Below are positions 637-7,275 of a stretch of DNA of 20,656 nucleotides, in pieces. The DNA is from a virus: positions 1 to 20,656 of IMG/VR virus record IMGVR_UViG_3300001419_000077; one strand, written 5' to 3'. A program made the translations under genes and the position numbers. Numbering within the stretch: position 1 is the first letter of the stretch; every line of letters begins with the position of its first letter. Under the pieces are notes generated by a model, which worked only from the letters and a program-made list of their open reading frames with translations, did not search any database and was not told where the DNA came from.

Positions 637-2458
637 GTTCGACAACTTCGACGGATTGCGGCGGACTATTGGCGCCGCTGCGCGTCATCTAAAGCCGCCG
701 CCGAATCTGAAGCCGAGCGAATGGGCGGAGCAGAATGTCCGCGTCCCGATTGGTAACGCGGTCCCCGGCTTGATTCGATTCGATCACGCGCCATACCAGC
801 GCGAGCCGCTGGATATGACCGCTAACCCGGAATGCCAGCGAATCACGCTCATGTGGTCCGCCCAGGTCGGGAAAACGATGCTCGCGCTATGCGCCCAGGC
901 GTTCAAGATCGGGCAAGACCCGCAAAGCCAAATAATGATGCAGCCGTCGCAAGGTGATCTTTCGACTTGGATCGAGACCAAATTCAATCCGTTGGTGGAG
1001 AGTAACGACCAGCTCCAGGCGTTGATCGCGAAGCCGCGCGGCCGGGAGGGCGTGAACAATCAGCGCATGAAGTCATACCCCGGCGGCTTTTTGATGTTCT
1101 CCTGGTCGGGATCACCCAAAACAATGCGCGGCCGTTCGGCGCCTTTCATTGTCTGCGACGAGACTGACGGCTATGACAAAAGCCAAGAGGGTCATCCGGT
1201 GTCGCTACTCTGGCAGCGCGCAGCCACATTTGGCGACCGGCGGAAGCTCCTCGAGATCAGTACGCCAACGATCAAAAATGCAAGCTGGATCGAGGACTCT
1301 TATGTCCAAGGGGATCAGCGACATTTCTACGTTCCGTGTCCGAGCTGTGATCACCGCCAGCAACTGGTCTGGTCGAGCGTCATCTGGGACGAGGATCAAC
1401 CGGAGACCGCAAAATACGCTTGCACCGGGTGCGGCGTTATGTGGTCAGACGGCGAGCGCATCGCGGCGATCAGGCGCGGCGAATGGCGAGGGGCGAGAGA
1501 GTTCCGAGGCCATGCCAGCTATCACCTGAACGAGCTATATTCGTGTTTCAGAAAGCTCGGCGATATCGCGCAATCATTCCTCGAGAAAAAGCGAAGCGGC
1601 GATCTCCAGACCTTTGTGAATGTTTCCTTGGCGGAAACTTGGGAGGAATCGGGCGACAGCGTTGATCAGGATATGCTCGAGACTCGCGCGGAGGATTGGG
1701 GCGAGACCTGGCCGGCGGAGGTCGTTACGGTCGTCGCCGGGGTCGACGTCCAGGACGACCGGCTCGAGCTGGAGCTGGTGGGTGTCGGGCGGGACGAGGA
1801 AACCTGGTCGCTTGAGTATATGGTTCTCCCCGGCGACCCCAGTGCCCCCCAAGTGTGGGCTGACCTGGACGCGGTACTGTTCGCCAGCTATGAAACCGCC
1901 GACGGTCGCGAGCTGGGCGTTCGCGCGACTTGCATCGATACCGGCGGACATCACACCCAGGCGACTTATCGATACATCAAAACGCGCGAGGCGCGGCGGG
2001 TGTTTGGGATCAAGGGTGTCGGCGGTGAAGGTCGTCCGCTGGTCGGGCGCCCGAGCAAAAACAATATCGGCAAGGTGAGGCTATATCCGGTCGGGTCGGA
2101 CACTGCGAAAGAGCTGGTTTATGGCCGGCTGAAGATCACCGAGCCCGGACCTGGATACTGTCACTTTCCCGACAATCGTGATCCCGAGTATTTTCTCCAG
2201 CTCACGGCGGAGCAGCTCGTCACTCGATACATTCGCGGCCATGCGAAACGCCAATGGGTAAAGAAACGCCGAAGGAATGAAGCTCTCGACGTTCGATGTT
2301 ATGCTATGGCGGCGCTATATATTTCCGGTCTCAATGTCAATATACTAGCGGACAAAATCGCGGACCAGCGAATCAATGGTAGCGGTGAAAGACCCGAGCG
2401 CAAAAAGCAACCGGCGAATTCAAGAAAATCGGGCGGATTCGTTAATAACTGGAGGTAG
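620..2458 (+). CDS. terL: Terminase large subunit, lambda GpA-like
   Basis: A 612-residue packaging ATPase and nuclease that translocates DNA into the prohead and cuts it. Visible motifs are a Walker A-type loop SAQVGKT (80-86), a Walker B FIVCDETD (176-183), a coupling motif LEISTPT (211-217), and a CxxC pair repeated as CPSC (240-243) and CTGC (268-271) that suggests a zinc-binding insertion. The nuclease domain shows acidic residues in AGVDVQDDRLE (D375 region), CIDTGGHHT (D440) and ALDVRC (D557). This order and length fit the GpA family (Phage_GpA). It starts with ATG ACG ATG inside the end of the small subunit gene; GGAG at 611-614 supports the first ATG. Confidence 0.95.
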   Translation: MTMTSEFDNFDGLRRTIGAAARHLKPPPNLKPSEWAEQNVRVPIGNAVPGLIRFDHAPYQREPLDMTANPECQRITLMWSAQVGKTMLALCAQAFKIGQDPQSQIMMQPSQGDLSTWIETKFNPLVESNDQLQALIAKPRGREGVNNQRMKSYPGGFLMFSWSGSPKTMRGRSAPFIVCDETDGYDKSQEGHPVSLLWQRAATFGDRRKLLEISTPTIKNASWIEDSYVQGDQRHFYVPCPSCDHRQQLVWSSVIWDEDQPETAKYACTGCGVMWSDGERIAAIRRGEWRGAREFRGHASYHLNELYSCFRKLGDIAQSFLEKKRSGDLQTFVNVSLAETWEESGDSVDQDMLETRAEDWGETWPAEVVTVVAGVDVQDDRLELELVGVGRDEETWSLEYMVLPGDPSAPQVWADLDAVLFASYETADGRELGVRATCIDTGGHHTQATYRYIKTREARRVFGIKGVGGEGRPLVGRPSKNNIGKVRLYPVGSDTAKELVYGRLKITEPGPGYCHFPDNRDPEYFLQLTAEQLVTRYIRGHAKRQWVKKRRRNEALDVRCYAMAALYISGLNVNILADKIADQRINGSGERPERKKQPANSRKSGGFVNNWR

Positions 2459-2461
2459 GAA

Positions 2462-3049
2462 TTGGCAAACCTATTTGATGCCGCAGCCGCGCCGGAGGGC
2501 GAACCGTCCGAGATCGTCGTCGGCGACTATATTCAATGGAAGCGGTCAGACCTGACGACCGACTACCCGACCGCCGACTACACCGCCACATATGTCGCCC
2601 GGATTACCGGCGGCGGGGCAAGTGAGATACAGATCACCGGCACCGCGTCGAATGGCGCCTATCTTTTCACGGCTGACTCGACCACATCGGCGGATTTCAA
2701 TCCGGGCTATTATCACTGGCAACTCGAAATTGTCCGCAATTCCGACAGCAATCGGATCGTGGTGGATCGCGGCGCGTTCACGGCAATCGTTGACCTTGAT
2801 GTCAACAACAGCGACCCGCGCACTCATGCCGAGAAAATGCTGACAAAAATCGAATCGCTGCTCGAGGGTCGAGCCGACTCCGACGTCGCAAATTATTCGA
2901 TCCAGGGTCGCAGTCTGACCAAACTCTCCATCGATGAGCTGGTCAAATGGCGCGACTATTATCAATCCGAGGTCAACAGAACCAAGCGCCTCGAGGAAAT
3001 CAAGCTCGGTCGCAAAACGTCGGCCACGGTTAAAGTGAGATTCATCTGA
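2462..3049 (+). CDS. Putative head-tail connector, beta-rich N-terminus with gpW-like C-terminus
   Basis: A 195-residue protein between terminase and portal, the slot of lambda gpW. The C-terminal 75 residues (from DPRTHAEKMLTKIESLLEG, then YSIQGRSLTKLSIDELVKWR) have the short beta-hairpin plus helix pattern seen in gpW-type joining proteins. The first 120 residues look like a beta-sandwich (alternating hydrophobics, Gly/Thr rich) and are extra relative to gpW, which is about 68 residues. The start is TTG, well supported by GGAGGT at 2451-2456. It overlaps the portal ATG (TGATG). An alternative is a decoration or other accessory head protein. The gpW link is pattern-based. Confidence 0.6.
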   Translation: MANLFDAAAAPEGEPSEIVVGDYIQWKRSDLTTDYPTADYTATYVARITGGGASEIQITGTASNGAYLFTADSTTSADFNPGYYHWQLEIVRNSDSNRIVVDRGAFTAIVDLDVNNSDPRTHAEKMLTKIESLLEGRADSDVANYSIQGRSLTKLSIDELVKWRDYYQSEVNRTKRLEEIKLGRKTSATVKVRFI

Positions 3050-4557
3050 TGGGAATGTTTGACATTTTCCGCCGGAAGCCGAAGCCGATCAAAAAGCGCG
3101 GATTCGATGGCGCTTCGACCGGGCGGCTGTTTTCTGATTTTGTGACTTCGCAACGCTCGGCGGACTCCGAGCTGCGTTATTCACTCAAAACGCTGCGAAA
3201 CCGCTGTCGGGAGCTGGCGCGCAATAACGAATATGCGCGGCGGTATTTGCATCTAGTAAAAACCAACGTCGTCGGCGAACGCGGCGCGACGCTTCAGGTC
3301 AAGGCAACCAATGTCGACGGCAGCCTGGACACGATCGGCAACTCGATCATTGAGCAGGAGTGGGCGCGCTGGACGCGCGTCGGAAATTGCACTGTCGACG
3401 GGCGTCTGTCATTTACCGACGCTCAGGCGATGGTCGCGGAGTCTATGGCGCGCGACGGCGAGGCACTGGTGCGCTTTGTCAATTATGACGGCAACCAGGA
3501 CCGATTCGCTCTCGAATTCCTCGAGCCTGATTTGATCGACGAGGAGAAAAACGAGCGCGCGCCAAATGGTAACGAGATCAGAATGGGCGTCGAGTTCGAT
3601 CAATACCGGCGCCCGGTCGCTTATCACATGATGACCGAGCACCCTGGCGACTACCAATTCCACCAGTATGATCGCCGCACTCAGCGGGTCGAAGCGGATA
3701 GCATCCTTCATTTGTATATGCCAGACAGAGCCCAGCAAACGCGCGGGGTTCCCTGGATGTCGACGGCGCTGACATCGCTGAAAATGCTGCATGGCTATCG
3801 CGAGGCGGAGCTGGTTGCCGCCAGGACAGCGGCGAGCAAGATGGGCTTTTTCATCTCGCGCTCTGGCGATGGGTTTATGGGTGACGATCTCGAGGACAAT
3901 GTGGTCCCGATCACTGACGCGGAGCCCGGCACGTTTTTCCAGCTCCCCAGAGATGTCGAATTCCAGCCCTGGGACCCATCGCATCCGACGACCGCGTTCG
4001 GCGATTTTGAAAAGTCGATTCTGCGCGGCATCGCGTCCGGGCTGGGGGTTTCATATCATTCTCTGGCGAATGATTTGACGCAAACCAGCTACTCCAGCAT
4101 CCGCCAGGGTAGCATCGAGGACCGCGATTTTTACAAAACGATCCAGAGCTATATGATCGCGCATTTTGTCATGCCGGTTTATCAGCGATGGCTGACCAAT
4201 GCTTTCACGATTGGGCGGGTGAATCTGCCCATCGATAAGTTCGACAAGTTTTATGATGCTTCGCAGTTCCGACCGCGCGGCTTCCAATGGGTCGATCCGC
4301 AAAAAGAGATTTCCGCCCATGTTGTCGCACTGACAAACGGGCTGATCTCAATGCAGGATGTCGCGAACATTTACGGGCGCGATGTCGAGGAAGTATTCGC
4401 GCAGATTGCCAGAGACAAACAGCTCGCCGAACAGTTCGGCCTGAAGCTGGCATTCGAGCCGTTTGGCGGCGGCCAATCGCCATACGGACCCGGCAAGATC
4501 AACTTAATGACCGGCGAATCGTTTGACGCGATGACGGAGGAGCCCGATGGCGACTGA
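3049..4557 (+). CDS. Portal protein, lambda gpB family
   Basis: A 502-residue portal, which forms the ring at one capsid vertex through which DNA enters and leaves. The basic N-terminus (MGMFDIFRRKPKPIKKRG), the RCRELARNNEYARRYLHLVK segment and the downstream SILRGIASGLGVSYHSLAND and YSSIRQGSIED stretches are typical of the lambda portal family (Phage_portal_2). The length is slightly below lambda gpB (533). It overlaps the upstream gene by one base and the protease-capsid gene by 11 bases, so the head genes form a tightly coupled operon. Confidence 0.92.
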   Translation: MGMFDIFRRKPKPIKKRGFDGASTGRLFSDFVTSQRSADSELRYSLKTLRNRCRELARNNEYARRYLHLVKTNVVGERGATLQVKATNVDGSLDTIGNSIIEQEWARWTRVGNCTVDGRLSFTDAQAMVAESMARDGEALVRFVNYDGNQDRFALEFLEPDLIDEEKNERAPNGNEIRMGVEFDQYRRPVAYHMMTEHPGDYQFHQYDRRTQRVEADSILHLYMPDRAQQTRGVPWMSTALTSLKMLHGYREAELVAARTAASKMGFFISRSGDGFMGDDLEDNVVPITDAEPGTFFQLPRDVEFQPWDPSHPTTAFGDFEKSILRGIASGLGVSYHSLANDLTQTSYSSIRQGSIEDRDFYKTIQSYMIAHFVMPVYQRWLTNAFTIGRVNLPIDKFDKFYDASQFRPRGFQWVDPQKEISAHVVALTNGLISMQDVANIYGRDVEEVFAQIARDKQLAEQFGLKLAFEPFGGGQSPYGPGKINLMTGESFDAMTEEPDGD

Positions 4558-7237
4558 CTTTCCGAAGAAAGGCGACGACCAGAAGATATCGCTTCGCAAT
4601 TCCGAATATCCGCAATTCGACCGTGAATTCGCGGAGAACATCAAGGAATTCAACTCCGAGGTTTGGGCGCTCGGCGGGAATGTCCGGGGCAATGATGCGT
4701 TCCGGCTGTGGGGAAGCGCGCGCGATGGCGATGAGGCTGGCTCGGTGTTGGACTGGATCAAAGAGCGGGAAGCCTGGGCCGCGCGTCATTTTGAGGATGG
4801 CGCCCATCTATCGAGCGAGGAGCCGAACAAAAGCAATATCGCCGGCGTCGTCGCTCAAATGAAATGGGGTGTCATTGGCACCCTGGGCGAGCAAGGCATG
4901 AAGGACGCGATTCTCGAGCTGATCAAAAAGCTGGAAGGCAAGAAAGAGGACCGCCAGCTCTCCGATCAGGTCGAGACCGCACTCGAGAATAAGCGCGACG
5001 AGCACAACGAGGAGGTGGGCGACGATCCGCTCCGCCGCGTTACGCTTGCCATGTTGCGCGAAGTAATGGAGCGCGGGATCGGCGCGTATAAGACAAACCC
5101 CGGCTCGGTTCGCCCTGGCGTGAGCTCCCCGGAACAGTGGGGATATGCCAGGGTTAATTCGTTTTTGTTTGCAATGAAGAACGACCGATTCCAGGGCGGC
5201 AAACATGACACCGACTTATTCCCCGACGGTCATCCGCTGGCGTCAGATGATGAAAGCGAGAAAGCGGCGGAGTATACTGGCAAGATGGAAGAATCAGGAG
5301 ATCGCGCAGTGGAACAGCGACATATCAAAAACGTCGTCGAGACCGACGACGAGATCATCATCACATTCGGGAAATCTATGCCCGAGGAGGAAGCGGCGGA
5401 CGAGCCTGATATCGTGGAGGCCGTCGACGATTACGACGAGGAGCGCCTCTCGAAATCCGAGGTATTTCATCGGATGGAACACGCCGAGGTCGAGGAGAAA
5501 GACGACCGGCGCGTTCAAATGTCCGTCTCGAGCGAGCAGGAAGTCGAGCGATCATTCGGTCGCGAGCTGATTGTTCACACCGAGGAAACGCTCGACCTTA
5601 AATTTTTACGATCCGGCAGCGCGCCGCTGCTATTAGATCACGACCCCGAACGACAAATCGGGGTCATTGAATCCGTAAATCTCGACGGATCGGCCCGGCG
5701 TCTCCGGGCGACGGTGCGCTTTGGAAAGGGTGCGCTTGCTGACGAGGTTTATCAGGATGTGCTCGACGGCATTCGCTCGAATGTCTCGATCGGGTACAAA
5801 GTTCGGCGAATGGAAAGGGACAAGGACGAACAGGATTTGTTCCGAGTAATCGATGCCGAAATCATGGAGGTCTCTATCGTTTCACTTCCCGCCGACCCGT
5901 CGGTCGGTGTGGGGCGTTCGGTCGAGGTATCCGACACCGCTACCATTAAACCCATCGAAAAGGAGGTTCCTATCATGGAACAAGAAAACCAAATCGATTT
6001 GGATCAGGTACGCGCGGAAGCCGCTGCCGAACGATCCAAGGAAGTAAACGAAATGCTCGGCCTGGCCGCCAAGCACAATCAGCGTTCATTCGCTGACGAC
6101 GCTATCCGCCAGGGCATGACATTGGCGCAGTTCCGGGGCGCTTTGTTGGACAAGATTGCCGACAAGCCGCTGGACGTCGCTGACGTTGAGCTGACACCAA
6201 AAGAGGAGCGACAATATAGCTTGATCAACGCAATCCGATCAGCGCAGACAGGCCGATTTGACGGCTTCGAGCGTGAGGTATCGGAGGAGCTTGCCAAGCG
6301 ATATGGCAAGGAGCCGCGCGGTTTCTACGTTCCTTCCAGCATCTTCAAGCGGGATTTGACGGTCGGCACCAACGCCGCCGGCGGATTTTTGAAGCCAACC
6401 GACCACCTTGGCGGTGAGTTCATCGACGCGCTTCGCGCGAACCTGGTGATCTCTAGCCTGGGCGCTCGCATGATGCAAGGACTGAAGGGCGACGTCGCCA
6501 TTCCTGCACTGAATGCCAAGACCTCAGTCGGCTTTGTCGCTGAGAACGCGGCGCCCGGTGCTGAAGGCGCTCCGACTTTCCGACAGGTAACGATGTCACC
6601 CAAGACTCTGGTTCAGTACGTTGATATCTCTCGCAAGCTGTCAATGCAATCTGATCCCAGCGTCGAGCAGGTGATCCGCGACGATCTGACCCGCCAATTC
6701 GCGGCGAAGATTGACGAAGTGGCAATCGAGGGCGGCGGTTCTAACGAGCCGGAAGGCATCACCCAGACCAGCGGCATCGGTTCCGTTGTAATGGGCAACA
6801 ACGGCGGTGCGGTTACTTACGCCAAGCTGGTCGACCTCGAGAAGGAAGTCGCCATCGACAACGCGCTGGCTGGAAATCTGGCATACCTCACCAACCCGAA
6901 AGTGGTCGGTGCTATGCGTCAGACTCCGCGCCAGGCGAGCGGTGTTGAGGGTAACTTCATCCTGAACGACAGCAACACCCTGCTGGGTTACAACGTAGCA
7001 AGCTCGACGCTTGTTCCTTCGGATTTGACCAAAGGAACCAGCTCTGGTGTTTGCTCGGCTATAATCTTCGGAAACTTCAATGACCTGATGATCGGCATGT
7101 TCGGCGGTCTCGATGTGCTGGTTGATCCCTACACCGGATCAGCTACCGGCGCGACCCGAATCGCGATGTATCAGGACATTGATGTCGCTGTCCGTCATGC
7201 GGAATCGTTCGCTGCGATTCTGGACGTCACGACTTAA
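4547..7237 (+). CDS. Fused prohead protease and HK97-fold major capsid protein with two uncharacterised N-terminal regions
   Basis: One uninterrupted 896-residue frame. Residues about 14-130 (LRNSEYPQF, NIAGVVAQMKWGVIGTLGEQ) and about 160-230 (GAYKTNPGSVRP, SPEQWGYARVNSF, GGKHDTDLF) are motifs I associate with uncharacterised phage head-module proteins. Residues about 325-460 are an HK97 prohead protease (peptidase U35): H365 in LLLDHDP, S414 in NVSIGYKV and E441 in MEVSIVSLPADP are the likely catalytic residues. Residues 477-896 are an HK97-fold capsid protein (Phage_capsid). Protease and capsid are usually separate genes. Internal starts at 5309 and 5975 suggest nested shorter products from the same frame. 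Protease self-cleavage could also separate the parts. It starts 11 bases inside the portal gene with GGAGGAG upstream. Confidence 0.88.
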   Translation: MATDFPKKGDDQKISLRNSEYPQFDREFAENIKEFNSEVWALGGNVRGNDAFRLWGSARDGDEAGSVLDWIKEREAWAARHFEDGAHLSSEEPNKSNIAGVVAQMKWGVIGTLGEQGMKDAILELIKKLEGKKEDRQLSDQVETALENKRDEHNEEVGDDPLRRVTLAMLREVMERGIGAYKTNPGSVRPGVSSPEQWGYARVNSFLFAMKNDRFQGGKHDTDLFPDGHPLASDDESEKAAEYTGKMEESGDRAVEQRHIKNVVETDDEIIITFGKSMPEEEAADEPDIVEAVDDYDEERLSKSEVFHRMEHAEVEEKDDRRVQMSVSSEQEVERSFGRELIVHTEETLDLKFLRSGSAPLLLDHDPERQIGVIESVNLDGSARRLRATVRFGKGALADEVYQDVLDGIRSNVSIGYKVRRMERDKDEQDLFRVIDAEIMEVSIVSLPADPSVGVGRSVEVSDTATIKPIEKEVPIMEQENQIDLDQVRAEAAAERSKEVNEMLGLAAKHNQRSFADDAIRQGMTLAQFRGALLDKIADKPLDVADVELTPKEERQYSLINAIRSAQTGRFDGFEREVSEELAKRYGKEPRGFYVPSSIFKRDLTVGTNAAGGFLKPTDHLGGEFIDALRANLVISSLGARMMQGLKGDVAIPALNAKTSVGFVAENAAPGAEGAPTFRQVTMSPKTLVQYVDISRKLSMQSDPSVEQVIRDDLTRQFAAKIDEVAIEGGGSNEPEGITQTSGIGSVVMGNNGGAVTYAKLVDLEKEVAIDNALAGNLAYLTNPKVVGAMRQTPRQASGVEGNFILNDSNTLLGYNVASSTLVPSDLTKGTSSGVCSAIIFGNFNDLMIGMFGGLDVLVDPYTGSATGATRIAMYQDIDVAVRHAESFAAILDVTT
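5296..5311 (+). promoter_or_regulatory. Candidate internal ribosome binding site and GTG start before the protease domain
   Basis: AGGAG at 5296-5300 lies eight bases before GTG at 5309-5311, which is in frame (codon 255 of the 896-codon gene). Initiation here would give a 642-residue protease-capsid product without the two N-terminal regions. The SD and spacing are seen directly; use of the start is inference. An ATG at 5285, also in frame, is an alternative with a weaker SD. Confidence 0.4.
5960..5977 (+). promoter_or_regulatory. Strong internal ribosome binding site for the capsid part
   Basis: AAGGAGGT at 5960-5967, a full anti-Shine-Dalgarno complement, lies just upstream of ATG 5975-5977 with seven to eight bases spacing. 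The ATG is in frame (codon 477) and sits exactly where the protease ends and the capsid delta-like helical region begins. It is among the strongest SDs in the window. This points to independent, high-level translation of a 420-residue capsid precursor. Confidence 0.85.
5975..7237 (+). CDS. Major capsid protein, HK97 fold, probable nested product
   Basis: A 420-residue C-terminal product of the fused head gene if translation begins at the internal ATG. Its first 100 or so residues are charged and helical (MEQENQIDLDQVRAEAAAE), like the delta/scaffold domain that U35 proteases remove. The rest has the HK97 capsid pattern: TNAAGGFLKPTDHLGGEFID, SLGARMMQGLKGDVAIPAL, FVAENAAPGAEGAPTF (E-loop region), AAKIDEVAIEGGGSNEPEGI and the C-terminal MIGMFGGLDVLVDPYT. 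The length fits stand-alone HK97-family capsid genes. It is followed within 30 bases by an intrinsic terminator. The coding assignment is firm; that it is made separately is inferred from the SD. Confidence 0.85.
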   Translation: MEQENQIDLDQVRAEAAAERSKEVNEMLGLAAKHNQRSFADDAIRQGMTLAQFRGALLDKIADKPLDVADVELTPKEERQYSLINAIRSAQTGRFDGFEREVSEELAKRYGKEPRGFYVPSSIFKRDLTVGTNAAGGFLKPTDHLGGEFIDALRANLVISSLGARMMQGLKGDVAIPALNAKTSVGFVAENAAPGAEGAPTFRQVTMSPKTLVQYVDISRKLSMQSDPSVEQVIRDDLTRQFAAKIDEVAIEGGGSNEPEGITQTSGIGSVVMGNNGGAVTYAKLVDLEKEVAIDNALAGNLAYLTNPKVVGAMRQTPRQASGVEGNFILNDSNTLLGYNVASSTLVPSDLTKGTSSGVCSAIIFGNFNDLMIGMFGGLDVLVDPYTGSATGATRIAMYQDIDVAVRHAESFAAILDVTT

Positions 7238-7247
7238 TAGTCGAAAC

Positions 7248-7275
7248 GGCGCCCTTCGGGGCGCCTTTATTTTTT
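7248..7275 (+). terminator. Rho-independent terminator after the capsid gene
   Basis: A 7-bp perfect stem GGCGCCC (7248-7254), a stable TTCG tetraloop and GGGCGCC (7259-7265) are followed by TTTATTTTTT. It lies 10 bases past the capsid stop. The next gene starts 11 bases beyond the T-tract, with no room for a promoter, so downstream tail genes need read-through or antitermination. Confidence 0.9.

Follow-up and report, generated by a model that had tools for sequence, protein, structure and literature searches.

A conserved internal Shine-Dalgarno sequence and ATG very probably mark a capsid-precursor gene nested in a fused viral protease-capsid gene

Organization of the locus

The window, i.e. 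the whole stretch of DNA that was analysed (20,656 bases of a virus record), carries a head-tail module, with genes for the small and the large terminase, head-tail joining protein, portal, a fused protease-capsid protein, head closure protein, tail terminator, tail tube and tape measure. The features at the fused gene are:

4536..4549, + strand: Shine-Dalgarno sequence (SD) GGAGGAG and ATG, start of the full-length open reading frame (duplex energy -9.5)
4547..7237, + strand: fused open reading frame of 896 codons with no internal stop, S78 prohead protease and HK97-type capsid in one frame
7248..7265, + strand: terminator-like hairpin with a T run, directly 3' of the capsid stop

The 5' end of the fused frame overlaps the 3' end of the portal gene (portal stop at 4557). 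The encoded protein is composed of an N-terminal helical domain (aa 1-233), the S78 protease (about aa 260-448), a linker (448-485), a putative delta domain (485 to about 610) and the HK97-type capsid part (about 612-896). Pfam matches were found for S78 (PF04586, aa 357-453) and for the capsid (PF05065, aa 616-890), and PHROG 617 (fused protease-major head protein) matched aa 317-894 with 463.7 bits (2.6e-138). An S78/U35 protease and an HK97-type capsid thus lie in a single open frame with the profile extending over both, as is characteristic of PHROG 617, from which the window protein differs by its extra N-terminal domain.

The PDB sequence search gave no match to a protease, and the assignment of the protease part is that of Pfam and PHROG; H365 and S414, invariant in alignments of 30 and of 33 sequences, are the putative catalytic His and Ser of the S78 protease. 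The capsid part, aligned from aa 612, had its best PDB sequence match in the phage R4C capsid (8gta; E 2e-32), and structure comparison with HK97 prohead I (Z 17.9, 250 residues, rmsd 4.2) identifies the HK97 fold of a major capsid protein in the mature part. The AlphaFold2 model is of low confidence at 234-258 and at 448-485, and hence each of the two internal starts discussed below falls within a disordered linker that immediately precedes a folded part; the disordered stretch 448-485 includes M477 and is followed by a long helix (485-509), modelled as the putative beginning of the delta (scaffold) domain.

The N-terminal helical domain that is fused to the protease (window 4547-5245) was modelled with an AlphaFold2 pLDDT of 79 and has a DUF5824-like match at aa 165-212; its fold had no counterpart in PDB at E < 0.001, and the domain is absent from most of the wider family. 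The hairpin at 7248-7265 is strong, and a terminator-like hairpin within 80 nt past the stop was found in 30 of the 101 non-redundant relatives described below.

An internal initiation signal ahead of the capsid part

Within the linker, the following features were located:

5960..5967, + strand: internal SD AAGGAGGT, from its duplex energy with the anti-SD; site conserved in relatives
5975..5977, + strand: in-frame internal ATG (codon 477), candidate start of the nested capsid precursor; Met invariant in the 33-sequence alignment
5975..7237, + strand: predicted nested capsid-precursor gene (420 aa; delta domain and mature coat), from the AlphaFold2 model and the alignment to PDB 8gta from aa 612

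The SD and the in-frame ATG pointed out by the sequence-only reading are present, 7 nt apart, and its view that such a pair seldom arises by chance is borne out, as AAGGAGGT-N4..10-ATG occurs once in the window against a mean of 0.01 per shuffled window. The pair lies, as proposed, at the protease/capsid boundary (the Pfam match to S78 runs to aa 453, that to the capsid from aa 616); strictly, the ATG at 5975 sits between the protease and the N-terminal delta domain of the capsid, and the mature shell part begins about 135 residues further on, by alignment to the first modelled residue of the R4C capsid (8gta). The duplex energy of AAGGAGGT with the anti-SD (-12.3 kcal/mol) is the top value among in-frame starts of the open reading frame, the ATG of the frame itself being second (-9.5), and also surpasses all 19 gene starts scored in the window (runner-up -11.8).

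Conservation among relatives

Relatives were collected from viral contigs, isolated phages and prophages in bacterial genomes (247 loci, of which 237 contain both domains). Protease and capsid share one open frame in 236 of these 237, with locus L192 as the sole candidate for a non-fused arrangement; the searches put long joint matches first and so favour fusions, and the absence of split relatives therefore cannot be concluded from this 1 in 237. In the non-redundant set (fusions clustered at 70% identity; 101 members), 859 of 2,525 linker codons are one change away from a stop, and the frame being kept open nonetheless suggests, with the fusion-biased search in mind, selection for the long form. 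The open frame is also what would be expected of a pure polyprotein, i.e. if proteolysis released every capsid subunit from a fusion and the SD-like sequence simply mirrored a Lys-Glu-rich cleavage linker.

By the criterion of the sequence-only reading, a nested gene would have been refuted if relatives sharing the fusion had lost the SD. Across the 236 fused relatives, an in-frame ATG was found in the linker of all 101 non-redundant members, and about three quarters (75%) have an SD ahead of the first linker ATG, compared with 12% of 1,478 other internal ATGs (p 4e-44). When set against 60-codon control windows, taken from the same frames and treated in the same way, the linker had a best SD of -5 or lower in 78% versus 16% (p 6e-34), and it was the best SD window of the entire frame in 54 of 101. 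The SD is retained nearly letter for letter in the window's own clade, and is represented at the same place in other clades by GTGGAGGTAATTACA-ATG, TTAAGGAGAGTCCC-ATG, AAAGGAAAATAAA-ATG, CAAAGGAGTGATCCC-ATG, among others. Around the linker Met, an alignment of 26 members, some of them phages with 32-47% identity, is gapped and unconserved, whereas the Met itself hardly varies.

The averaged anti-SD profile of the 101 fusions has a single peak 13 nt upstream of the ATG (-5.4 versus -1.2) with depletion on both sides, and the SD-to-ATG spacing is fixed at 5-10 nt. RNA structure at the linker start is weaker (folding energy -4.1 versus -8.2), the GC content is 13 points below that of the open reading frame, and the second residue is S, T, E, A or P in 70% versus 36% (S/P/E/D/T after Met in the averaged profile). 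Judged from the sequences, the linkers have, on average, the profile of a translation initiation region. The hexapeptides ahead of the linker Met are all distinct (101 in 101 fusions), and the site is therefore not explained by a common peptide. A cleavage linker leaves the Met in 101 of 101, the spacing, the low RNA structure, the start-like second residues and the 101 different peptides unexplained, and release of all subunits from a polyprotein is very unlikely.

The same features bear on the possibility that elongating ribosomes, not initiating ones, are the target of the internal SD, which would make them pause for domain folding or would stimulate frameshifting. SD-like sequences within genes can pause ribosomes or stimulate frameshifts; however, neither pausing nor shifting requires the ATG at start spacing, the low-structure context or the start-like second residue that are conserved here, and on reading the sequence no classical slippery heptamer was seen beside the site of the window. 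We attach next to no probability to this explanation.

Among 13 isolated phages the linker site was at least as strong as the annotated starts, with a mean peak above that of 95 annotated gene starts. The ATG is kept with no clear SD in the cyanophages S-LBS1 (L073), S-CBS1 (L075) and S-CBS3 (L079), in Xanthomonas phage M29 and in some prophages; cyanobacteria make weak use of the SD, with which the cyanophage fusions are in line.

An SD-ATG was also found at the junction of three distant fusions, i.e. l5 of Lactococcus phage c2, Helicobacter prophages and DCP80-like enterobacterial phages, and is conserved in each family among its own relatives. The Pfam model of the lactococcal capsid (PF06673) begins exactly at the junction Met, residue 131 of c2 l5.

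Synonymous constraint

5948..5998, + strand: strongest synonymous constraint in the open reading frame, codons 468-484 (ratio 0.36; 0 of 400 permutations)

Conservation of the SD in synonymous positions had been proposed as a check, and was assessed among close relatives (18 sequences), each pair being normalised by its own divergence; the stretch most constrained in the whole frame, codons 468-484, is the one that holds the internal start, and it ranked first again in a wider set of 35 sequences (p 0.010). Codons 241-257 were second in the close set (p 0.007, 17-codon window) and not significant in the wider set. In a first run, codons 241-251 had appeared as the top constraint, which was partly due to their coverage by close relatives only; after pair normalisation the capsid start came first. 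A third, marginal stretch of low synonymous divergence was observed within the N-terminal domain (window 4763-4807, codons 73-87).

Shuffling of synonymous codons within each sequence gave a small SD excess (median p 0.33, combined 5.6e-4); the GGA cores lie in one shared codon phase in 62 of 77. This shuffle has low power because most of the SD is already dictated by the encoded residues, Lys-Glu codons alone resembling one, and it was dropped as a sole test; the small excess indicates that the use of Lys-Glu residues, and not codon choice alone, accounts for much of the signal. The modest excess, and the frequency of Lys-Glu ahead of the linker Met, would also suit a cleavage linker in a polyprotein, which leaves the peak of synonymous constraint unexplained.

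A candidate second start at the protease boundary

5296..5311, + strand: candidate second internal start, AGGAG (5296-5300) and GTG (5309-5311, codon 255), in a constrained stretch at the boundary of N-terminal domain and protease

The constrained codons 241-257 cover this AGGAG and GTG, and the protease part begins there (M/V..RHI). Of the 10 non-redundant relatives in which an N-terminal domain is present and the M..RH motif has a start codon, eight have an SD there (p 2e-6). In Roseobacter phage CRP-823 (L070) the N-terminal domain is a separate, overlapping open reading frame (1537-2253 and 2213-4465), and in Roseobacter phage CRP-821 (L071) it is fused (1538-4462); the record of CRP-823 calls its separate frame major capsid protein, probably in error. 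Initiation at GTG 5309 is probable, though less certain than at ATG 5975, and would yield a protease-capsid protein without the N-terminal domain. A match to ATGAAA-17-TATACT (5250-5278) lies upstream of GTG 5309 within the synonymously constrained stretch, in the closest clade only; as a sigma-70-like promoter it was rejected, since 1.2 such matches are expected by chance in each region and relatives such as L014, L023 and L051 lack it.

The chances are about even that the gene is nested in three tiers (N-terminal-domain-protease-capsid, protease-capsid from GTG 5309, and capsid from ATG 5975) and that an internal capsid start is a general rule of phage protease-capsid fusions. If so, a few protease-tagged coat subunits would be built into each shell by translation alone.

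Comparison with known systems

In phage lambda, the scaffold gene Nu3 is nested in frame in the gene for the ClpP-like protease C. The arrangement in the window is alike in that a protease gene has an internal start, in frame and 3'-coterminal, for an abundant assembly protein which is its C-terminal part; here, an internal SD and start codon in the frame of the longer gene are conserved as an initiation site. The analogy to lambda C/Nu3 drawn by the sequence-only reading is apt as logic, whereas homologous membership in that family was rejected, since the nested product holds a PF05065 coat and the protease matches PF04586. The roles of lambda C, Nu3 and E have been described (PMC3224144). 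The nested product is a scaffold in lambda and would be a capsid precursor with a built-in delta (scaffold) domain here, and the protease is S78 by annotation, not ClpP-like.

A second parallel is UL26/UL26.5 of herpesviruses, where a protease is fused to an assembly protein and a separate short form co-assembles with it, carrying the protease into the procapsid; there the short form is a scaffold from its own transcript, whereas here it would be the coat, made via an internal ribosome site. The herpesvirus protease enters the procapsid by its scaffold part, and the long form should likewise enter the shell via its delta/coat part.

Phage HK97 has an S78-type protease, a delta domain and the HK97 capsid fold as well, and the 420-aa short form is laid out like gp5; in HK97, however, protease (gp4) and capsid (gp5) are encoded by two separate genes, in contrast to one open frame with an internal start. 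The fusion may accordingly have come from stop loss, and the SD and ATG could be a vestige of the formerly separate genes, now functionless. Against this, the signal persists where protein identity is down to 34-45% and every lineage has replaced the peptide around it, and the site is the most constrained stretch among close relatives, where a vestige would decay; we regard a vestige as extremely unlikely. Fusion of protease and capsid genes is known from Paracoccus prophages, described with reference to Lactococcus c2 (PMC6536676).

Proposed products and their significance

The site is very probably a working internal start, by which one open reading frame would give rise to few copies of a protease-capsid fusion and to a 420-aa capsid precursor in abundance; the nested gene suggested by the sequence-only reading is thus supported, on the conserved ATG and SD and on the synonymous constraint. 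From the initiation signal established here with its conservation and spacing, from the domain layout and from the open fused frame, we infer the making of both products, their ratio, their co-assembly, and self-release or cleavage. Ribosomes that start at 4547 (or at GTG 5309) would read through to produce the protease-capsid fusion, and those binding AAGGAGGT at 5960 would begin at ATG 5975 to produce the delta and coat precursor, similar to the stand-alone gp5 of HK97. The short form would make up the bulk of the shell, and the long form, which has a delta/coat part as well, would use it to co-assemble, bringing a controlled, sub-stoichiometric amount of protease inside the prohead, which would then remove the linker and delta domains. 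The mature T=7 capsid of R4C contains 415 copies of the capsid protein (PMC10276861), which makes one protease per subunit implausible; if all subunits were released from a polyprotein, such a prohead would need about 415 proteases inside.

The protease-capsid fusion (PHROG 617; PMC6536676) and in-frame nested starts (lambda C/Nu3) are already known. No description of a nested capsid start conserved across protease-capsid fusions was found in the literature searched, with most subscription journals outside the search, and none is listed in the PHROG 617 entry or in 19 annotated phage records, which give one long head protein or an equivalent.

Annotations of the fused genes would hence miss a second product, as the abundant capsid precursor of this widespread family would begin at an internal Met that is skipped, and the N-terminus of the capsid would be corrected for structural and proteomic work. 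SD-ATG pairs at domain boundaries under synonymous constraint may expose further hidden nested genes. The nested start would explain why a fused gene need not force phages to load as many proteases as coat subunits, and single-codon changes would make it possible to test protease dosage during HK97-type assembly.
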